DNA from: Pseudolabrys sp.
Lineage (GTDB): Bacteria; Pseudomonadota; Alphaproteobacteria; Rhizobiales; Xanthobacteraceae
DNA length: 64,000 nucleotides
NCBI GenBank assembly: GCA_017849615.1
Contig: JAFIGS010000014.1
Span: 62,001 to 126,000 of the forward strand
Direction of reading: 5' to 3'
Of the stretch, positions 3,824 to 53,902 are shown piece by piece (within the stretch, counting starts at the first letter, position 1; every line of letters starts with the position of its first letter). The notes below the pieces were generated by a model. The model had not been told where the DNA came from and made no database searches. It saw only the letters and a list, made by a program, of their open reading frames with translations. Position numbers and translations under genes: made by a program.

Positions 3824-3830
3824 TGTTTTT

Positions 3831-3910
3831 GTAGCCCGGATGGAGCGAAACGCAATCCGGGGCGAACGCCAAAGAAGGTCCCGGGTTTCGCTGCGCCCCA
3901 CCCGGGCTAC
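3831..3910. repeat. Intergenic palindromic repeat, family A
   Basis: The ends are perfect inverted copies: GTAGCCCGG at the left and CCGGGCTAC at the right, with an inner pair of similar G/C-rich arms. A shorter relative with the same outer sequence lies at 42801-42856. It sits between the convergent cupin and epimerase genes and could fold into a long hairpin on either strand. Confidence 0.8.
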
Positions 3911-3922
3911 AAACAAGTGCGT

Positions 3923-33492: not shown

Positions 33493-33525
33493 GCCGAGCG
33501 AGAGGCCGGCGCTTCTCTTTCTTTC

Positions 33526-33666
33526 CTTCCCCTCTCCCCTTGGGGGAGAGGGTGGCAAGCGAACGAATGTGAGCGAGCCGGGAGAGGGGTGCTTGCTCAA
33601 CGAAATTTACCCCTCTCCCGCCCTCGCTTTGCTCGGGCACCCTCTCCCCCAAGGGGAGAGGGGAAG
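33526..33666. repeat. Intergenic palindromic repeat, family E, with 29-bp perfect arms
   Basis: Bases 33526-33554 (starting CTTCCCCTCTCCCC) are the exact inverted complement of 33638-33666. A second inner pair, GGGAGAGGGGT with ACCCCTCTCCC, lies inside. The 141-bp unit lies between the convergent amidohydrolase and fadJ-like genes and could terminate both. Confidence 0.85.
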
Positions 33667-33691
33667 GCACGGCAAGGCTTCGACGTAGAAC

Positions 33692-35902
33692 CTACGCCGC
33701 CTTCTTCTTCGGTGCGAACCTGGCGTGGAAGCTCTCGCCCTTCTCGGCCATCTCGACGAGCTGCTTGCCGGGCGCGAAGCGCTTGCCGAATTTGGTCTCC
33801 AGCTTCCTGCACAGCGCGACGAACTTCTTCGTCCCCATCATGTCGATGTAGGACAGCGCGCCGCCGGTGAAGGGCGCAAAGCCCCAGCCCAGGATCGAGC
33901 CGACATCGGCCTCGCGCACGTCGGTGACGACATGCTCCTCGAAGGTGCGCGCGGCTTCCACCGCCTGCGCGACGAGGAAGCGCTGTTTGAGCTCCTCGAC
34001 GTCGATGGCCTCGACCTCCTCGCGCGACAGCTTTTTCGGCGACAGGTCGGCGAGGCCCGGCCACAGTCTTTTGGGCTGGCCCTGCGGATAATCGTAGAAA
34101 CCCTTGCCGTTCTTGCGGCCGAAGCGCTGGTTCTTCTCGACCAGATCCTCCAGCAGCTTCTTCATGCCGGGATTGACCGCGCCGGCGCCAAGATCGGCTT
34201 CGGTGGCGCGCAGGATCTTCAGGCCGAGATCGACGCCGGTCTCGTCGTTGAGCGATAAAGGCCCGACCGGCATGCCGGCCATGCGCGCGGCATTCTCGAT
34301 CATCGCCGCCGGGATGCCCTCCAGGAACATCAGGTGCCCTTCCTGGATGTAGGCAAGCACGCAGCGGTTGGCGTAGAAGCCGCGCGTGTCGTTGACGACG
34401 ATCGGCGTCTTGCGGATGGCGCGAATGAAATCGAGCGCGGTGGCGAGCGCCGCATCACCCGTCTCCTTGCCCATGATGACCTCGACCAGCATCATGCGAT
34501 CGACCGGCGAGAAGAAGTGGATGCCGATGAAGCGCTTCGGGTCCTTGAACTCGGCGGCGAGCGACGTGATCGGCAGCGTCGAGGTGTTGGAGGCGAAGAT
34601 GGCCTTGTCGCCGATCACGGCCTCGATCTTCTTGATGACATCGGCCTTGACCTTGCGGTCCTCGAACACGGCTTCGACGATCAGGTCGCAATCCTTCAAC
34701 GCCGCATAGTCGGCGGTCGCCGTGATCTTCTCCAGCAGCGCGTCGCGCTCGGCGCCCTTCATGCGGCCTTTCATGACGCGATCGGACAGCGCTTTGTGCA
34801 GCCCGGCCTTGCCCTTGTCGGCGGTTTCCTGATCGCGATCGATCAGCACGACATTGAGCCCGGCCGCGGCCGAGACCTGCGCGATGCCGGCGCCCATGAA
34901 GCCGGCGCCGACGACGCCGATCTTCTTCAGGTTCGTCGCCGGCACGCTGGCCGGGCGGCGCGCGCCCTTGTTGAGGTCCTGCATGTTGACGAAGAGCGTG
35001 CGGATCATCGCCGCCGCTTCCGGCGAGCGCAGGATCTTGGCGAAGTGCCGCGACTCGACGCGCAAGGCGGTGTCGATGTCGACCTGCAGGCCCTCATAGA
35101 CCACCTGCATGATGGCGCGGGCGGCGGGATAATTGTCGTAAGTCTCGCGGCGATAGATGGCGTTGGCCGGCGGGAAGGTCATCATGCCGGCCTTGGAGTA
35201 AACGAGGCCGCCGGGGAATTTGTAGCCCTTCACGTCCCACGGCGCCTCGGCCTTGCCGCCGGCCTTGATCCAGGCTTTCGCGGTTTCGATCAGCTTGTCC
35301 TGCGGCACGACATTGTCGATGAGCTTCGCCGCCTTGGCGCGATCGACCTTGAGCTGGTCGCCCTTGAGCAGGAACTGCAGCGCATCGGCGGGCGGCATGA
35401 TGCGCACGACGCGCTGCGTGCCGCCGGCGCCGGGGAACAGGCCGACCTTGATTTCGGGCAGGCCGAGGCGCGTTTTCGGATTGTCGGAAGCGACGCGGTG
35501 ATGGCAGGCCAGCGCCAGTTCGAAGCCGCCGCCCATCGCCGTGCCGTTGAGCGCGCAGACCCACGGCTTGCCGCTCTTCTCGAGGCGGCGATAAAGCTGC
35601 GACAGCTTCGCGCTCTCCTCATAGACATATTGCGCGGCGGCGACCTCGCCTTCCTTCTTCACCTTGTCGGCGTAGATGGCGCCCATGCTCTCCAGCATGG
35701 TGAGATCGGCGCCGCCGCAGAAGGCCTCCTTGCCGGAGGTGATGACGGCGCCCTTGATGGCGGCATCGCCCGCCACCTTGTCGACGAGGTCGGACAACTC
35801 CTCGATCACCTCCATGGTGATGACGTTCATCGAGCGGTCGGCCATGTCCCAGGTGATCAGCGCAATGCCGTCGGCGTCGATGTCGAGCTTGAAAGCGGTC
35901 AT
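33692..35902 (-). CDS. fadJ: FadJ-like bifunctional enoyl-CoA hydratase/3-hydroxyacyl-CoA dehydrogenase
   Basis: A 736-residue fusion enzyme of beta-oxidation. Residues 1 to about 190 form the crotonase domain (S-G-K-E-A-F-C-G-G-A-D-L-T, and A-L-N-G-T-A-M-G-G-G-F-E-L-A with the oxyanion loop and catalytic Glu). From about 330 the dehydrogenase begins with I-G-V-V-G-A-G-F-M-G-A-G-I-A, then G-I-H-F-F-S-P-V with the catalytic His, followed by two C-terminal domains. It hydrates trans-enoyl-CoA and oxidises the 3-hydroxyacyl-CoA with NAD. The thiolase gene lies upstream, separated by the DUF559 element. The DUF559 stop overlaps its start codon (ATGA), and GAGAGG lies just upstream. Confidence 0.94.
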   Translation of the reverse strand: MTAFKLDIDADGIALITWDMADRSMNVITMEVIEELSDLVDKVAGDAAIKGAVITSGKEAFCGGADLTMLESMGAIYADKVKKEGEVAAAQYVYEESAKLSQLYRRLEKSGKPWVCALNGTAMGGGFELALACHHRVASDNPKTRLGLPEIKVGLFPGAGGTQRVVRIMPPADALQFLLKGDQLKVDRAKAAKLIDNVVPQDKLIETAKAWIKAGGKAEAPWDVKGYKFPGGLVYSKAGMMTFPPANAIYRRETYDNYPAARAIMQVVYEGLQVDIDTALRVESRHFAKILRSPEAAAMIRTLFVNMQDLNKGARRPASVPATNLKKIGVVGAGFMGAGIAQVSAAAGLNVVLIDRDQETADKGKAGLHKALSDRVMKGRMKGAERDALLEKITATADYAALKDCDLIVEAVFEDRKVKADVIKKIEAVIGDKAIFASNTSTLPITSLAAEFKDPKRFIGIHFFSPVDRMMLVEVIMGKETGDAALATALDFIRAIRKTPIVVNDTRGFYANRCVLAYIQEGHLMFLEGIPAAMIENAARMAGMPVGPLSLNDETGVDLGLKILRATEADLGAGAVNPGMKKLLEDLVEKNQRFGRKNGKGFYDYPQGQPKRLWPGLADLSPKKLSREEVEAIDVEELKQRFLVAQAVEAARTFEEHVVTDVREADVGSILGWGFAPFTGGALSYIDMMGTKKFVALCRKLETKFGKRFAPGKQLVEMAEKGESFHARFAPKKKAA

Positions 35903-36369
35903 GGGTTTTCCTCTCGATAGCTCGTTGATTGGCTTTTCCCCTCCCCCCGCGCGCGCTTGCGCGTGGTGGGGAGGGGTAAGGGGTGGGGGCCCGCCTGCGA
36001 TCTTGCAGTCAATGCTTCAAAGATCACTGTCATTACGCCCTCAGTGTTCGCGAGCACGTCACCATTCCAGAACCGAAGCACGTGGTAGCCATGGTCGGCG
36101 AGATACCGCGTCCGCCGGGCATCGTGCGAAAGTGCTTGCCCGAGCATGTGGCCAGAGCCATCCAGTTCAATGACAAGCTTGGCCTGATGATGCGCGAAAT
36201 CGGCGAAGTAGGGCCCGACGGTCGCCTGCCGGCGAAAATGCCCATCGCCGACACCTAGACGCCGCAGGTGCCACCACAGCCGGCGCTCCGCGTCGGTCAT
36301 GTCGCGACGCAGTTGCCGCGCCCGCGGCACGCGCCGGTCAGTCGCACGTTCCTGCTCGTTGCGAGGCAT
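35899..36369 (-). CDS. DUF559-domain (Vsr-like fold) protein carried by an inverted-repeat element
   Basis: A 156-residue protein. The core is [39 protein letters not shown] and [14 protein letters not shown], the DUF559 pattern related to very-short-patch-repair endonucleases (PD-(D/E)xK fold, with D and E-x-D visible). The ATG at 36369 has AAGGGGA upstream and lies inside the right repeat. An in-frame ATG at 36444 would add a repeat-encoded arm. The last 30 residues run through the left repeat, and the stop overlaps the fadJ start. Nuclease activity is not proven for this family. Confidence 0.82.
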
Positions 36370-36431
36370 TCCCCTTGACTTGCCCCCCACCCCGGACCCC
36401 TCCCCACCGCTGCGCGGGGGGAGGGGAAAAG
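35933..36431. mobile_element. 499-bp inverted-repeat element carrying a DUF559 gene
   Basis: Both ends carry a perfect 20-bp inverted repeat: CTTTTCCCCTCCCCCCGCGC at 35933-35952 and its complement at 36412-36431. Further inward, GGGGAGGGGT-AAGGGGTGGGGG on the left and its near-complement on the right extend the similarity. The DUF559 gene fills the interior. The unit lies exactly in the gap between the thiolase stop (36452) and the fadJ start (35902). I do not see a clear target-site duplication. Mobility is inferred. Confidence 0.6.
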
Positions 36432-36451
36432 TTGCGCCGTGCATCAAGATG

Positions 36452-37663
36452 TCAAACCCGTTCGATGATCGTGGCGGTGCCCATGCCGGCGCCGATGCAC
36501 AACGTGACCAGCGCGGTTTCCTTGCCGGAACGCTCCAGCTCGTCGAGCACGGTGCCGAGGATCATGGCGCCGGTGGCCCCTAACGGATGGCCCATGGCGA
36601 TAGCGCCGCCATTGACGTTGATCTTGTCGTGCGGAATGTCGAAGGCCTGCATGTAGCGCAGCACCACCGAGGCGAAGGCTTCGTTGAGCTCGAACAGGTC
36701 GATGTCGCCGATCGACATGCCGGCGCGCTTAAGCACCTTCTCGGTCACCGGCACCGGGCCGGTGAGCATGATCGACGGCTCGGAGCCGATATTGGCGAAG
36801 GCCTTGATGCGCGCGCGCGGCTTGAGGCCGTTGCGCTTGCCGGCTTCCTCATTGCCGATCAGCACCGCGGCGGCGCCATCGACGATGCCCGACGAATTGC
36901 CCGGCGTATGGACGTGGTTGATCGATTCGAATTCCGGATAGCGCTGGATCGCCACGGCGTCGAAGCCGCCCATCTCGCCCATCTGCACGAACGACGCGTT
37001 GAGCGCGGCGAGCGTCTGCATGGTCGTCGACGGACGCATGTGCTCGTCCTTGTCCAGGATGGTCAGGCCGTTGACGTCCTTGACCGGGACCACCGACTTC
37101 TTGAAGCGGCCTTCGTCCCAGGACCGGCCGGTGCGCTTCTGGCTTTCCACGGCATAGGCATCGACGTCGTCGCGCGAGAAACCGTATTTGGTCGCGATCA
37201 TGTCCGCCGAGATGCCCTGCGGCACGAAGTAGGACTTGAGCGCGATCGAGGGATCGACCGGCCAGGCGCCGCCCGAGGCGCCGATGCCGACACGGCTCAT
37301 GGATTCGACGCCGCCGCCGATGGTCAGATCGTGCTGGCCGGACATCACCTCCGCCGCGGCGAAGTTCACCGCGTCGAGGCCGGAGGCGCAAAAGCGGTTG
37401 ATCTGGATGCCGGGCACCTTCTCGCCGAAGCCGGCCATGATCGCGGCGACGCGGGCGATATCGCCGCCGGCCTCGCCGACCGGATCGACGCAGCCGAGCA
37501 CGACGTCGTCGACGGCGTCGGGGGCGTCGAGCTTGTTGCGCTCCTTGATGGCGCCGAGCGCCTGCGCCGCGAGATTGAGCGCGGTGACTTCGTGCAGCGC
37601 GCCGTCGGACTTGCCGCGCCCGCGCGGCGTGCGGACGGCGTCGTAGATGAAGGCTTCGGTCAT
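36452..37663 (-). CDS. fadA: Acetyl-CoA acyltransferase (thiolase)
   Basis: A 403-residue thiolase that cleaves 3-ketoacyl-CoA with CoA in the last step of beta-oxidation. The acyl-accepting Cys92 lies in [14 protein letters not shown]. The catalytic His is in [15 protein letters not shown] and the second Cys, about residue 389, in L-C-I-G-A-G-M-G. The ATG at 37663 is preceded by AGGGAG; the in-frame extension to 37723 comes from a repeat. It forms a beta-oxidation unit with fadJ downstream and acyl-CoA dehydrogenase upstream. Confidence 0.94.
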
Positions 37664-37676
37664 TCGGCTCTCCCTC

Positions 37677-37786
37677 GTCATTCCGGGGCGCGCTGAAAGC
37701 GCGAACCCGGAATCCAGCGACAAATCGTTAGCATTCCCTGTTTCCCTGGATTCCGGGTTCGCCGCTTCGCGGCGCCCCGGAATGAC
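37677..37786. repeat. Intergenic palindromic repeat, family C (copy 1)
   Basis: Ends GTCATTCCGGGGCGC and GCGCCCCGGAATGAC are perfect 15-bp inverted repeats, with an inner GAACCCGGAATCCAG / CTGGATTCCGGGTTC pair. The same family lies at 57601-57705. It fills the gap between the acyl-CoA dehydrogenase stop and the thiolase start. Confidence 0.85.
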
Positions 37787-39022: not shown

Positions 39023-39213
39023 CCTCTCCCCTCCCCCCGTTCGCGAAGCGAATGGCGGGGAGGGGTCGGGGGTGGGGGGCGAATTATCATTCGCGAGGCC
39101 GGTAAAATCCCCCCACCCCGCCAGCCTTCGCTATCTCTCAGACTGGCGCCCCTCCCCACCGCCATAGCGCGTCAAAGACGCGCGTTAACGCGCTTATGGC
39201 GGGGGGAGGGAAA
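39023..39213. mobile_element. 191-bp gene-less inverted-repeat unit, family F
   Basis: The left half starts CTCTCCCCTCCCCCCG and ends GGGGTGGGGGGC; the right half starts CCCCCCACCCCG and ends GGCGGGGGGAGGGAAAG. The two halves are inverted copies of the same kind as the ends of the DUF559 element 2.6 kb away, but no gene lies between them. The right half has an extra internal palindrome (CGCGTTAACGCG, 39180-39191). The unit lies between the acyl-CoA dehydrogenase and the branched-chain binding-protein genes. Confidence 0.6.
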
Positions 39214-42797: not shown

Positions 42798-42800
42798 ATT

Positions 42801-42856
42801 GTAGCGCGGGTGGAGCGCAGCGAAACCCGGGTTGCGCTTCGCTCCACCCGGGCTAC
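42801..42856. repeat. Intergenic palindromic repeat, family A (short copy)
   Basis: GTAGCGCGGGTGGAGC at the left and GCTCCACCCGGGCTAC at the right are inverted copies with one mismatch. Inside is a second pair, GAAACCCGGGTTGC. It lies between the convergent MFS and acyl-CoA dehydrogenase genes and is a shorter relative of 3831-3910. Confidence 0.8.
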
Positions 42857-42859
42857 GAA

Positions 42860-44650
42860 CTAAAACGCCTCCGCCGGCAACTCCATCGTGCTCGCCGCGC
42901 CCGCCTGGATGCGGGCAAGGCGCGTCACCGTCTCGGGCATGATGCGCTCCATAAAGAAGCGCGCGGTGACGAGCTTGGCGTTGAAGCGCGCCGCGTCGCC
43001 GCCGGCCTTGATCTTCGCACTCGCCGCGTCGGCGATCTGGCACCACATGTAGCCGAGCGCCACGAGACCGAAGAGATGCATGTAATCGGTGGCGCCGGCG
43101 CCGGCGTTGTCGGGCTTGGCCATGGCGTTCTGCATGAACCACATCGACGCCTGCTGCAGATCGTTCGCGCCCTTGCCGAGCGCGGCGACCAGCGGCTTCA
43201 TCGTTTCGTCGCCGCCCTTCTCTTTGGCATAGGCGCCGAGCTCCCCGAGGAACGCCATCAGCGCGCGGCCGCCGTCCTTGCCGAGCTTGCGGCCGACGAG
43301 GTCCATGGCCTGCACGCCGTTGGCGCCTTCGTAGATCATGGCGATGCGCGCATCGCGCACGAACTGCTCCATGCCGTGCTCGGCGATGTAGCCGTGGCCG
43401 CCATACATCTGCTGCGCCGATACCGTGTTGGCGAAGCCGACATCGGTCATCACGCCCTTGATCACCGGCGTCATCAGGCCGAGCGCATCATCGGCGGCCT
43501 GACGTTCCTTGGCGTCGCCGGAGCGGTGCGCGACGTCGCTCTTGAGACCGGCCCACAGCACCAGCGCGCGCGCCGCCTCGTTGAAGGCGCGCATGGTCAT
43601 CAAGGTGCGGCGCACGTCGGGATGCACGATGATCGGATCGGCCGCCTTGTCGGGGAACTTCGCGCCGGTGATGGCGCGGCCCTGCAGGCGCTCCCTGGCG
43701 TAGACGACGGCGTTCTGATAGGCGACCTCGGACAGCGCGAGGCCCTGGATGCCGACGCCGAGCCGCGCCTCGTTCATCATCACGAACATGGCATTGAGGC
43801 CGCGGTTTTCCTCGCCGACCAGCCAGCCGGTGGCGCTGTCGTAATTCATCACGCAGGTCGAGTTGCCGTGGATGCCCATCTTCTCTTCGAGCGAGCCGCA
43901 GGACACGCCGTTGCGCGCACCGACCGAGCCATCGTCGCCGACCATGAACTTCGGCACCACGAACAGCGAAATGCCCTTGGTGCCGGCGGGCGCGCCTTCG
44001 ATGCGCGCCAGCACCAGATGGATGATGTTGTCCGACATGTCGTGTTCGCCGGCGGAGATGAAGATCTTGGTGCCGGAGATCTTGTAGGAGCCGTCGGCCT
44101 GCTTCACCGCCTTGGTGCGCAACAGGCCGAGATCGGTGCCGCAATGCGGCTCCGTCAGATTCATGGTGCCGGTCCAGACACCTTCGATCATCTTCGGCAG
44201 ATATTTCTGCTTGATCGCGTCATTGGCGTGGACGATGAGCGCGGCGATCGCGCCCTGCGTCAGGCCGGGATACATGGCGAAGGCCATATTGGCCGAGCAG
44301 AAGTATTCGTTGACGATCTCGGTGATCGTCATCGGCAGGCCCTGGCCGCCGAATTCCTGCGGCGCCGAGATGCCGATCCAGCCGCCCTCGACGATCTGCC
44401 TGTAGGCGTCCTTGAAGCCGGTGGGCGTCGTCACGCTGCCGTCGGCTGCGCGCTTGCAGCCTTCCTTGTCGCCGACACGGTTGAGGGGTGTCAGCACGTC
44501 CTCGGACAGCTTGGCGGCTTCGGTGAGGATCGCCTCGACCACGTCCGGCGAGGCGTCGGAGAAGCCCGGCAGATTGCCGTAGCGCTCGATGTGAAAAACG
44601 TCGTTGAGCAGAAACAGCGCGTCATCGACAGGCGCTTTGTAGATCGGCAT
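42860..44650 (-). CDS. Acyl-CoA dehydrogenase, long form with C-terminal domain (DmdC/FadE-like)
   Basis: A 596-residue protein, about 200 longer than ordinary acyl-CoA dehydrogenases. It starts Y-K-A-P-V-D-D-A-L-F-L-L-N-D-V, typical of the DmdC group. It has T-M-N-L-T-E-P-H-C-G-T-D-L-G as the flavin signature, M-Y-G-G-H-G-Y-I-A-E-H-G, and I-Y-E-G-A-N-G-V-Q-A in the catalytic Glu region. The last 130 residues are the C-terminal helical domain. DmdC oxidises methylmercaptopropionyl-CoA, but many relatives handle ordinary acyl-CoAs, and no dmd genes are nearby. Confidence 0.92.
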   Translation of the reverse strand: MPIYKAPVDDALFLLNDVFHIERYGNLPGFSDASPDVVEAILTEAAKLSEDVLTPLNRVGDKEGCKRAADGSVTTPTGFKDAYRQIVEGGWIGISAPQEFGGQGLPMTITEIVNEYFCSANMAFAMYPGLTQGAIAALIVHANDAIKQKYLPKMIEGVWTGTMNLTEPHCGTDLGLLRTKAVKQADGSYKISGTKIFISAGEHDMSDNIIHLVLARIEGAPAGTKGISLFVVPKFMVGDDGSVGARNGVSCGSLEEKMGIHGNSTCVMNYDSATGWLVGEENRGLNAMFVMMNEARLGVGIQGLALSEVAYQNAVVYARERLQGRAITGAKFPDKAADPIIVHPDVRRTLMTMRAFNEAARALVLWAGLKSDVAHRSGDAKERQAADDALGLMTPVIKGVMTDVGFANTVSAQQMYGGHGYIAEHGMEQFVRDARIAMIYEGANGVQAMDLVGRKLGKDGGRALMAFLGELGAYAKEKGGDETMKPLVAALGKGANDLQQASMWFMQNAMAKPDNAGAGATDYMHLFGLVALGYMWCQIADAASAKIKAGGDAARFNAKLVTARFFMERIMPETVTRLARIQAGAASTMELPAEAF

Positions 44651-51272: not shown

Positions 51273-53902
51273 TTCATCGCTTCCTTGATCAACTCGTCGG
51301 CGGCTTCCGCCAGCAGCGTGTCCGCCGCCTCGCCATAGACCGTTTCGCGGCCGATCTCCAGCATCACCGGAACCGCCAGCGGCGAGACGTGGTCCAGCCG
51401 TTTATGGACGATTCGGCCCTTAACGCGCGACAGCATTTCCGACAGCCGCTTGATATCGAGCAGCCCGGTCGCGGCGTCGGCCCGCGCCGCGCGCAGCAGG
51501 ATGTGATCGGCCTGATGCTTGCGCAAGACGTCGTAAACAAGATCGGTGGAAATCGTGAGTTGCCGCCGCGTCTTTTCCTCACCGGGGAACCGGCGCTCGA
51601 TCAGCCCGGCGATGATGGCGCAAGTGCGGAAGGTGCGTTTCATCAAGGCCGATTCATCGAGCCAGGCCTCAAGATCGTCGCCGAGCATGTCTTCGGCGAA
51701 GAGTTCCGCCAGCGACAGGCCGCCCTTCGCAATCCGCAGCCCCAAATCGCCAAGGCCCCACACCGCCAGCGCATATTCGTTGGCGACGAAACCGAGCGGC
51801 TTCAGCCCCCAGCGCTCAAGCCGCCGCGTAAGCAGCATGCCGAGTGTCTGATGCGCGAGGCGGCCCTCGAACGGATAGCAGACCAGATAATTCTTGGCCG
51901 CACGCGGAAAGGTCTCGACCAGCAGATCGTTCGCCGGCGGCAACAACGACCGCCACTCCTGGATCTTCAGCCACTCGCGCACTTGCTCCGGCAACGCGCC
52001 CCACGCTTTCGGATCGGCGAGAATGTCGCGCACGCGCGAAGCCAGATACGTCGACAGCGGAAACTTGCCGCCTTCGTAAGCCGGCACTTTCGGATCGGTG
52101 GCGTTGGAGCGCGAGGCATAGACTTCGTTTTCGACCAGCGCCTCGTAGCGCAATATTTCGCCGGCGAAGACGAAGGTGTCGCCCGGCGTCAGGCCTTCGA
52201 TGAAATATTCCTCGACCTGGCCGAGCACGCGGCCGCCGCGCGGAATGACCGTCGTCGAACGCCGCGAGCGCATGAGGCGAACTTTCAGCATGTCGGCTTC
52301 GACGATGGTGCCGATATTCATGCGATAGCGCTGCGCCACGTTCGGATGCGTGACGCGCCACTTGTTGTCCTTGCCGAGACGGATCTTGGCGAAACGCTCA
52401 TAGGCTTTCAGCGCATAGCCGCCCGTGGCGACGAAATCGATGACGCCATCGAAGTCGCTGCGCGCGAGTTTGGCGTATGGCGCGGCGGCGCGAACCTCAT
52501 CATACAGTTCGTCGGCGGTGAACGGCTCGCCAACGGCGCGGCCGAGCACATGCTGCGCCAGCACGTCGAGCGCGCCGGTGCGGAGCGGCGGCGTGTCTTG
52601 AGCATTCTCGGCGACCGCGCCGATCGCCGCTGTGCATTCCAGCACTTCGAAGCGGTTGGACGGCACCAGCACCGCCTTCGACGGCTCGTCGAGCCGGTGA
52701 TTGGCGCGGCCGATCCGCTGCAGCAACCGCGACGAGCCTTTCGGCGCGCCGATATTGACGACCAGATCGACATCGCCCCAGTCGATGCCGAGATCGAGCG
52801 AGGAGGTACACACCACCGCGCGCAATTTGCCGGCGGCCATGGCGTCCTCGACCTTGCGGCGCTGCGCGACATCGAGCGAGCCGTGATGCAGGGCGATGGC
52901 GAGGTTGTCGTCATTGATGCCCCACAAAGCCTGAAACATGAATTCGGCCTGGCTGCGGGTGTTGACGAAGATGAGCGTCGTCTTGTGCGCCTTGATCAGA
53001 TCGTAGACTTCGCCCAGCGCGTGACGCGCCGAGTGGCCGGCCCAGGGCAGCCGCTCGGTGGTCTGCAGCATCGACACATCCGGCTGGGCGCCGGCTTGCG
53101 CGATGACGAGATCAGCAAACACCACGCCGTCCGGCGGCTGCGGCACGAGATAACGACGTAGCTCATCGGGTTCGGCGACGGTGGCAGAGAGCCCGACGGC
53201 GGTCAGCCCCGGCGCCAGCGTGAACAGCCGCGCGAGGCCCAGCGACAACAGATCTCCCCGTTTGGACAGCACCAACGAATGCAGTTCGTCGAGAATGACG
53301 CGCTTGAGCGAGCCGAACAGGAACGGCGCGTCGGCGGTGGCGAGCAGCAGCGCCAGTTGCTCGGGCGTCGTGAGCAGGATGTCGGGCGGATCGCGGCGCT
53401 GGCGCTGCCGCTTGGAGGTCGGCGTGTCGCCGGTGCGAGTCTCCAGCCGGATCGGCAGCTTCATCTCGGCGACCGGCGCTTCGAGATTGCGCGCGATATC
53501 GACGGCCAGCGCCTTCAGCGGCGAGATGTAGAGCGTGTGCAGACCGCCTTCTCTTCCTTCTCCCCGCTTGCGGGGAGAAGGTGGCGAGGCGCGCAGTGCC
53601 GAGACGGATGAGGGGGCCTCCTCCGACGTCAACACCCCCTCACCCGGCTGCCCCCGGCTCTTCGCCGGGAACAGCCGACCTCTCCCCGCAGGCGGGGAGA
53701 GGTGAAGAGAGCGCTCATGCAGCTCCACCAGCGTCGGCAGAAAACCGGCCAGCGTCTTGCCGCCGCCGGTGGGCGCGATCAGCAGCGACGATGTCCCGGC
53801 GCGCGCTTTCTCCAGCAACGCCAATTGATGCGCACGCGGCTGCCACCCGCGCGCGGCAAACCAGTTCGCAAAGATGTCCGGGAGCGGCGCCGATGCGCTC
53901 AA
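51269..53902 (-). CDS. lhr: Ligase-associated Lhr-like DEXH-box DNA helicase, with an in-frame repeat insertion
   Basis: An 877-residue superfamily 2 helicase (Lhr-Core type). Walker A is A-P-T-G-G-G-K-T at residues 43-50, motif II is L-D-E-L-H, motif III is L-S-A-T-V, and helicase-C has R-I-G-R-A-N-H-R. The family C-terminal winged-helix and DUF4145-like part fills about 400-877. Residues about 65-120 are encoded by a palindromic repeat that sits between motif I and motif Ia (L-Y-I-S-P-L-K-A-L), a region that is normally short. The TTG at 53902 overlaps the methyltransferase stop. Working with the ligase, exonuclease and phosphoesterase, it repairs DNA damage. Confidence 0.92.
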   Translation of the reverse strand: MSASAPLPDIFANWFAARGWQPRAHQLALLEKARAGTSSLLIAPTGGGKTLAGFLPTLVELHERSLHLSPPAGRGRLFPAKSRGQPGEGVLTSEEAPSSVSALRASPPSPRKRGEGREGGLHTLYISPLKALAVDIARNLEAPVAEMKLPIRLETRTGDTPTSKRQRQRRDPPDILLTTPEQLALLLATADAPFLFGSLKRVILDELHSLVLSKRGDLLSLGLARLFTLAPGLTAVGLSATVAEPDELRRYLVPQPPDGVVFADLVIAQAGAQPDVSMLQTTERLPWAGHSARHALGEVYDLIKAHKTTLIFVNTRSQAEFMFQALWGINDDNLAIALHHGSLDVAQRRKVEDAMAAGKLRAVVCTSSLDLGIDWGDVDLVVNIGAPKGSSRLLQRIGRANHRLDEPSKAVLVPSNRFEVLECTAAIGAVAENAQDTPPLRTGALDVLAQHVLGRAVGEPFTADELYDEVRAAAPYAKLARSDFDGVIDFVATGGYALKAYERFAKIRLGKDNKWRVTHPNVAQRYRMNIGTIVEADMLKVRLMRSRRSTTVIPRGGRVLGQVEEYFIEGLTPGDTFVFAGEILRYEALVENEVYASRSNATDPKVPAYEGGKFPLSTYLASRVRDILADPKAWGALPEQVREWLKIQEWRSLLPPANDLLVETFPRAAKNYLVCYPFEGRLAHQTLGMLLTRRLERWGLKPLGFVANEYALAVWGLGDLGLRIAKGGLSLAELFAEDMLGDDLEAWLDESALMKRTFRTCAIIAGLIERRFPGEEKTRRQLTISTDLVYDVLRKHQADHILLRAARADAATGLLDIKRLSEMLSRVKGRIVHKRLDHVSPLAVPVMLEIGRETVYGEAADTLLAEAADELIKEAMN
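53553..53706. repeat. Palindromic repeat, family G, inserted in frame in the Lhr-like helicase gene
   Basis: CTTCTCCCCGC-TT-GCGGGGAGAAG at 53557-53580 and ACCTCTCCCCGC-AG-GCGGGGAGAGGT at 53678-53703 bound a 154-base stretch that keeps the reading frame open and adds roughly 50 codons rich in S, P, R and G. Confidence 0.8.

Follow-up and report, generated by a model that had tools for sequence, protein, structure and literature searches.

Evidence that the DUF559 gene between fadJ and fadA of Pseudolabrys sp. belongs to a mobile or formerly mobile REP element

REPs are repeats found widely in bacteria. The results presented here support the view that the DUF559 gene located between fadJ and fadA in Pseudolabrys sp. 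forms part of a REP element that is, or once was, mobile, and that its occurrence goes along with that of the dispersed REPs of the same class. The element lies in the window, i.e., the whole stretch of 64,000 nucleotides that was analysed (contig JAFIGS010000014.1, positions 62,001 to 126,000), at positions 35933-36431. The preliminary description of this DNA had noted perfect 20-bp inverted ends with further inner similarity, a DUF559 gene in the interior and a location in the gap of a beta-oxidation gene block, and all of these features were confirmed. It had also proposed that DUF559 moves the palindrome family as a RAYT-like system with an unrelated enzyme; this proposal is now supported, the cutting and moving by DUF559 itself being what we infer.

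Structure of the window element

The outer inverted arms, 35933-35952 and 36412-36431, are complementary at 20 of 20 positions, and the inner inverted pair, 35965-35989 and 36384-36408, shows 92% complementarity. Both ends are REPs, each made up of a C-rich palindrome that forms a hairpin and an inward-pointing, G-rich tail (Table 1). The flank-to-flank score of the locus was 55, compared with a maximum of 32 across 355 control windows of identical geometry. On either side of the locus are the frames of FadJ (33692-35902) and FadA (36452-37723), and the DUF559 frame reads through the left REP, its stop overlapping the start codon of fadJ. When both window REPs were read from the sequence, the GTAG tag was absent, as were CGTC and TGTC; CCTC is present inside the stem only, and the tail is G-rich.

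The open DUF559 frames of the window (35899-36447) and of the locus L042 extend into the REPs, adding tails such as PHPLPLP...GEG. Such REP-encoded tails could be contaminants of annotated DUF559 proteins.

Table 1. Positions of the element and of related REPs in the window
Feature	Position	Strand	Remarks
Gene-less inverted REP doublet, tail GGGAGAGGGG	33525..33667		Tail class of element L003 of the same genome
DUF559 gene, 156 codons, probable start codon ATG 36369, stop 35901-35899	35899..36369	-	PF04480 match; conserved E28, D57, E68, D70, H74
Left REP: palindrome 35933-35976 and inward G-rich tail TAAGGGGTGGGGG at 35977-35989	35933..35992	+	Tail class TGG; fold -45.2 kcal/mol
Right REP: inward tail (CCCCCCACCCC on the + strand) and palindrome, mirroring the left REP	36382..36431	-	Fold -29.2 kcal/mol
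Gene-less inverted REP doublet (REPIN-like), tail GGGGTCGGGGGTGGGGGG mirrored by CCCCCCACCCC	39023..39210		Shares the tail class of the window element; matches the right REP in inverted orientation
Single REP, tail GGGTGAGGGG (CCCCTCACCC on the + strand)	53635..53703	-	Tail class of element L001 of the same genome

Repeats of other kinds are also present in the window. An inverted doublet of a different palindromic repeat (CGTCATTCCGGGGCGC...), resembling the CGTC-tagged REPs, was observed at 37677-37786. A further repeat family (CCCGGGTTTCGCTGCGCCCCACCCGGGCTACAA) is found at 3828-3913 and 42799-42879, where the segments 3880-3912 and 42799-42831 form a 94% inverted match.

The DUF559 protein

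The protein encoded by the window element matched PF04480 (DUF559) with 113.5 bits, the gathering cut-off being 20.6. The Pfam search of this protein revealed DUF559 only, plus MTES_1575 below its cut-off, and no match to the Vsr profile. Likewise, the searches of Pfam, NCBIfam and PDB sequences yielded DUF559 and nuclease-type entries and no transposase. A profile match to PDB 3hrl was obtained at 7e-34, as well as a weak one (E 0.0014) to 3r3p, named 'Mobile intron protein', which we take to be I-Bth0305I.

In an alignment of 28 rows, 19 columns were invariant, including E28, Q48, D57, E68, D70, H74 and D83. The active-site residues are intact in the flanked loci described below: E28, D57, E68, D70 and H74 are kept in all 98 and D83 in 97 of them. 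The DUF559 genes are under purifying selection, with dN/dS values of 0.04-0.19 in 14 of 15 pairs and saturation in the remaining one. The assignment to a defence system was rejected, as PADLOC gave only a weak match to DpdF (E 4e-4), and so was a phage origin of the gene, the PHROG matches being only weak.

Inverted flanks of DUF559 loci

DUF559 was found in 137 of the 148 genomes of the host's family. The genome of the window (G000) has five PF04480 matches. Four of them (L001-L004) are enclosed by inverted REPs, each time of a different kind. The remaining one (L005; G000:C34:53122-56430), a 402-codon frame with a DUF559 domain, has no flanking REPs, and its D70, H74 and D83 are replaced.

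To score the flanks, the 250 bp upstream of each DUF559 locus were compared with the 250 bp downstream in inverted orientation. The median score of the first 76 loci was 50.5 versus 19 in 355 shifted windows of the same loci (99th percentile 29, maximum 32), and the value of 29 was kept as the threshold for later loci. The loci above it numbered 61 of 76, then 80 of 95 and finally 98 of 113 as the set grew, in a non-random sample of best-scoring or chosen matches (the five from the own genome, batches of 30 and 43, L042 and later additions). Enough flanking sequence was available for 76 of 78 loci of the first set and 19 of 20 of the second, while 18 of the 20 regions of the third were new. 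One locus scored as unflanked (L072) has both REPs visible by eye. In a second control, the upstream flank of one locus was compared with the downstream flank of another (444 pairs); the median score was 22, with 50 at the 95th percentile and 77 as the highest value. These high top scores arise because the ends of different loci often resemble each other, and the matching within pairs alone is therefore weaker evidence than the shifted-window control suggests.

The explanation of the flanks as chance or an artefact of C-rich intergenic DNA is refuted by the controls. The motifs are indeed G+C rich and of low complexity, and a reversed palindrome pattern was still matched 0-37 times per genome; however, this pattern is far rarer than the real one (13 versus 90 matches in the own genome), and 61 of the first 76 loci exceeded the 99th percentile of the shifted windows.

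The flanked loci belong to Alphaproteobacteria, Legionella (L136), Lysobacter (L125), Thiothrix (L134), Dehalococcoidia of the Chloroflexota (L118), WOR-3 (L124) and Syntrophales (L109). Among additional named records, kept outside the counts, those from Sinorhizobium (L273), Azospirillum lipoferum (L274), Sphingomonas (L275) and Deinococcus (L276) were flanked, and those from E. coli (L271, downstream repeats only) and Azospirillum brasilense (L272, upstream only) were not.

Organisation of the REPs and gene-less doublets

The REPs share a common plan of a palindrome, an optional second hairpin and a tail of the form GGGTGAGGG, GGGTGGGG, GGGAGAGGG or GGGAGGGG. In 80 elements, the median size between the outer REP limits was 473.5 bp, and the same tail class was present on both sides in 60, as assigned by a motif rule that may pick up stem arms as well. 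The tails mostly point inward, with outward orientation in some elements, e.g., L104, L131, L134 and L276. On one strand, stem and tail together supply four runs of G; this was the case for 62 of 80 left ends and 69 of 80 right ends, compared with 4 of 306 control windows.

Inward-facing neighbouring REPs were surveyed in contiguous sequence of three congeneric genomes, 1.264 Mb in total, which covered the window and was picked partly for its known DUF559 genes. Of the 24 inward pairs no more than 1.5 kb apart, 20 were gene-less with a spacing of at most 150 bp, and the remaining four, spaced by 331-700 bp, all enclosed DUF559. No inward pair in the surveyed 1.264 Mb enclosed any gene other than DUF559. 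The strict palindrome rule missed two of the six DUF559 domains in this sequence (L002 and L165), both of which were scored as flanked in the flank test.

Orthologous sites with and without the element

Among the 35 fadA-fadJ gaps that were fetched, only one contained DUF559 (L042, G010), with REPs near-identical to the window type. In six congeners the gap (35903-36451 in the window) holds a cupin gene and no DUF559; the cupin frame was read directly in five of them and via an opposite-strand frame in L037. G071 (L050) has one bare palindrome between fadA and fadJ, whose loop is the same as that of G010. In L100 (Pseudolabrys sp.) and L101, the element adjoins fadA about 500 bp before fadJ, and in L100 these 500 bp are recognisable as the cupin gene by the opposite-strand frame. 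As the element stands next to fadA in three other lineages (L100, L101 and L042), it is old at fadA-fadJ, and a fresh insertion at this site was rejected. The possibility that the cupin gene moved elsewhere in the window genome was rejected as well, because only matches of 30-31% identity were found there; the gene therefore appears to have been lost.

Other sites differ in the presence of the element. The L001 site is presumably bordered by metF and metH. It carries the element in four genomes (G000, G070, G091 and G153), and nine aligned genomes have a short gap without it. In G168 and G183 this site is taken by other palindromic repeats, to which G183 adds a solo palindrome of the L001-site element family. 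A doublet similar to that at 37677-37786 of the window was seen in both genomes at this position, where other congeners have the DUF559 element. At the L163 site the element is present in G070 and G168, one palindrome is found instead in G034 and two in G172, one of the latter matching a palindrome that also precedes the element in G070. The L003 element is absent from three aligned genomes.

The comparison of G000 with G153 over 400 kb revealed a full element in G153 opposite an imperfect solo palindrome in G000, one REP doublet opposite a solo palindrome and one doublet that was simply absent. Several sites carry other repeat families instead, and at one orthologous site a repeat similar to the CCCGGGTTTCGCTGCGCCCCACCCGGGCTACAA family replaces a REP doublet. 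Moreover, in G075 one element is present twice on a single contig, about 35 kb apart; the copies share 93.6% identity over 455 bp and have unrelated flanks. For an empty-site comparison this genus offered just one other genome, which gave no information. The elements are located in several unrelated intergenic gaps, with no single conserved homing site, intron or intein. In the comparison of filled and empty sites, the flanks were too diverged to fix the junction base by base, and no target-site duplication was identified.

These comparisons bear on the explanation that DUF559 is an ordinary repair gene of the VSP-like kind, with palindromes that serve as terminators or boundary signals and nothing mobile. 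Its model would be VsrA of Caulobacter, a protein that contains DUF559 and is likened to E. coli Vsr; it is reported to be induced by DNA damage and to cause the SOS response when methylation by the cytosine methyltransferase ScmA is missing (PMC12907096). Several copies are indeed inherited in place and under purifying selection. Nevertheless, we consider this explanation quite improbable, since the same kind of flanks recurs in unrelated neighbourhoods and phyla and is lacking in shifted windows of the same loci, the presence of the element differs among congeneric genomes, and G075 has copies at two different places.

REP classes, DUF559 clades and palindrome load

Within genomes, the left REP best matched its own right REP in 25 of 26 elements from nine genomes. 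Across all 80 elements the own partner ranked first in 29 and among the top three in 48, with a median rank of 2 (40 expected). The REP of L001 is closer to a REP of another element than to its own partner.

The tail classes are also clustered on the tree of DUF559. The numbers of changes compared with those after shuffling were 13 vs. 27.3 for TGA, 9 vs. 18.4 for TGG and 5 vs. 10.5 for AGA, and for each of these classes none of 500 shuffles was as low; the clustering of AGG was weaker (6 changes vs. 7.8, with 13 of 500 shuffles as low). The tree comprised 93 DUF559 domains, two of the 95 loci having been dropped for a short or interrupted domain, and is poorly resolved, 17 of its 90 inner branches being starred. 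The four elements of the own genome occupy four separate places on it, each near others of its tail class.

Since this clustering could stem from linkage alone, unlinked motif copies were tested by counting the motif of the window REP class, GGGGAGGGGTNNGGGGTGGGG, in the 148 family genomes. Its median was 6 in the 27 genomes with the window DUF559 clade, defined as E at most 1e-26 by a cut-off set after inspection of the list, versus 0 in the 82 genomes with other strong DUF559 matches (p 2e-7). The excess remained after subtraction of the two own-end copies, applied to the clade group only (p 7.5e-4). More than two copies of the motif were also found in 25 of the 121 genomes without window-clade DUF559.

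Based on a general palindrome pattern, the median load was 62 in the 109 genomes with a strong DUF559 match and 20 in the 39 without one (p 6e-6), the strong-match cut-off having been placed, after inspection of the list, at the gap between 2e-20 and 1e-30. In all 17 genera that include both kinds of genomes, the mean number of palindromes was higher with strong DUF559 (p 2.9e-4). In these genome-level tests related genomes are non-independent points, and the genome tables for both the palindrome load and the cognate motif were transcribed by hand. At least 50 palindromes despite no strong DUF559 match were present in 13 genomes, including all six sampled of the genus g41. The latter (G041, G073, G094, G113, G130 and G145) have 66-132 palindromes each.

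The most serious alternative is that an enzyme encoded elsewhere moves the REP pairs and DUF559 rides along as a passenger, perhaps useful in repair, so that the match between class and clade follows from linkage. Linkage can produce the clustering of tail classes on the tree, and the 13 palindrome-rich genomes without strong DUF559 would also fit. However, we regard this alternative as unlikely, because no other gene was present inside the inward pairs of the survey, the unlinked cognate motifs track the matching DUF559 clade, and the recurrence of the association in Deinococcota, Chloroflexota and Pseudomonadota is not readily explained by a passenger. Moreover, the best candidate for another mover, the RAYT-type Y1_Tnp (PF01797), was matched in just 35 of the 148 family genomes, 27 of them over the cut-off, and had no match in any of the seven genomes of the window's genus (the own genome and six congeners).

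The same result bears on the explanation that a tyrosine (HUH) transposase of the RAYT or TIRYT kind moves the REPs. The motif GGGGWSAS, shared by the TIRs of TIRYT genes according to PMC3733652, also fits GGGGAGAG. Nevertheless, the seven genus genomes without Y1_Tnp hold 10-91 palindromes each, so the explanation is disfavoured in this genus and appears very improbable.

The expectations expressed in the preliminary description were that DUF559 genes are flanked by matching inverted ends more often than random genes, that relatives have sites without the element, and that the DUF559 phylogeny matches the palindrome subfamilies. They agree with the 98 of 113 loci that score as flanked relative to shifted windows, with the single DUF559 among 35 fadA-fadJ gaps and the empty sites of other elements (the fadA-fadJ copy itself being old), and with the REP tail class following the tree. 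The contrary outcomes it had named, i.e., a lack of empty sites, an invariant fadA-fadJ gap or DUF559 genes elsewhere without flanking palindromes, did not occur.

Comparison with known systems

In the REPIN-RAYT system, as presented in PMC3116915 and PMC3733652, a single nuclease-type gene is located between inverted REPs, gene-less doublets are formed and repeat classes have their own genes. As in such a REPtron, the window gene is flanked by inverted REPs of one class, and gene-less inverted doublets of similar size occur in the same genomes. However, the enzyme is DUF559 and not an HUH tyrosine transposase, and instead of the GTAG tag the REPs share a G-rich tail, which forms a four-run G motif with the stem. 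Terminal inverted repeats are also present in insertion sequences, whose known transposase families (DDE, HUH, tyrosine/serine recombinase) were not matched here.

The EDxHD homing endonucleases and their function in mobility are described in PMC3943268. The conserved DUF559 residues E28, D57, H74 and D83 may correspond to the E, D, H and D of this family, represented by I-Bth0305I, to which the profile similarity is weak (E 0.0014). Unlike these endonucleases, DUF559 here is a stand-alone gene of about 150 codons without an intron, an intein or a single homing site, and its element has its own inverted palindromic ends. Vsr repair endonucleases nick DNA at T:G mismatches. The window protein differs from Vsr and VsrA as well: it has no Vsr Pfam match, it is encoded next to fadJ and fadA rather than a methyltransferase, and the ends of its element are palindromic.

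The CGTC-tagged REPs of Alphaproteobacteria have a terminal CGTC (or TGTC, CCTC) tag and a CCA-like tail, and according to PMC3733652 they have no associated transposase genes. They resemble our REPs in forming small palindromic doublets, and similar-looking ones are found in the same genomes, even at the same intergenic site, whereas the sequence and tag of the window REPs are different.

In E. coli K-12, the DUF559 gene ycjD (L277:1581-2180) is followed downstream by a REP with the tail GGGTTAGGGTGAGGGG. With a 45-bp query of this repeat, matches were obtained in 5375 of 5426 E. coli genomes, at a median of 18 places each. We presume that this repeat belongs to the BoxC family. BoxC is listed with 56 bp and 32 copies in PMC2267715. 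In the record that was examined (L271), ycjD lacks a matching REP on its upstream side, so the pair is incomplete. Just ahead of the gene lies another perfect palindrome, of a different sequence (CACCTCATTCTGACAA...TTGTCAGAATGAGGTG). The use of ycjD as a clean case of presence and absence was rejected, as the one fetched genome with a match to sapF only has efflux genes in place of ycjD after sapF and not a clean empty site.

Among the papers listed by searches of the open-licence PMC literature, in one case 10 of 1,424, no publication linking DUF559 to palindromic repeats appeared. A DUF559 gene of Deinococcus is listed among induced repair genes (PMC6712171), and in Legionella pneumophila a segment carrying a transposase and a DUF559 gene is reported to occur in three copies, which are recombination hotspots (PMC12308824), the latter being the nearest published hint of DUF559 in repeated DNA. 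A further paper, PMC9927313, turned out to be a false match to DUF5590.

Proposed mechanism and significance

On balance, it seems rather probable that DUF559, as an EDxHD/Vsr-like nuclease, spreads its cognate REPs and the gene-less doublets, combining a RAYT-like anatomy with an unrelated enzyme. The window element would then be the gene-bearing member of a REP family, and DUF559 would be a small nuclease of the PD-(D/E)XK kind. It would bind the REP of its own subfamily, recognised by the hairpin palindrome and the G-rich tail, and cut at or near it; repair or rejoining of the cut would copy the REP-bounded unit to other intergenic sites, and in this way binding and cutting would cause the spread. 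Two units would travel, one of about 0.4-0.6 kb with the DUF559 gene and the other a gene-less REP doublet of about 105-150 bp that would use the enzyme in trans.

The route may be homing-like, with a cut at an existing palindrome repaired from a copy of the element, or it may be a transposition into new sites. The homing-like route is slightly favoured because of the solo palindromes and the kinship with homing endonucleases. The solo palindromes may be targets of elements or their remains: the palindromic nature of each end makes the two ends direct repeats as well, so that their recombination would reduce the element to a solo palindrome, the state observed at several sites.

More tentatively, and with the balance somewhat against it, these elements might form a widespread class of bacterial mobile repeats, with palindromes homed by a stand-alone nuclease of the Vsr-like EDxHD kind. 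The enzyme would cut the REP of its own class, as a hairpin or G-quadruplex, repair would copy the unit into the cut palindrome or a new site, and solo palindromes would be both targets and remains. If such palindrome homing by an EDxHD nuclease were true, it would represent a new chemistry for the spread of REPs, possibly also behind the ycjD-linked repeats of E. coli.

Whole REP classes have no known mover, as PMC3733652 states for the CGTC repeats. If DUF559 is the mover of the REPs described here, a domain of unknown function present in nearly all genomes of the family would gain a role and a C/G-rich class of repeats an origin, and a nuclease likened to mismatch-repair enzymes would be the sole enzyme of a mobile element. 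As E. coli K-12 has both the DUF559 gene ycjD and a related repeat, the idea is testable in a laboratory strain.
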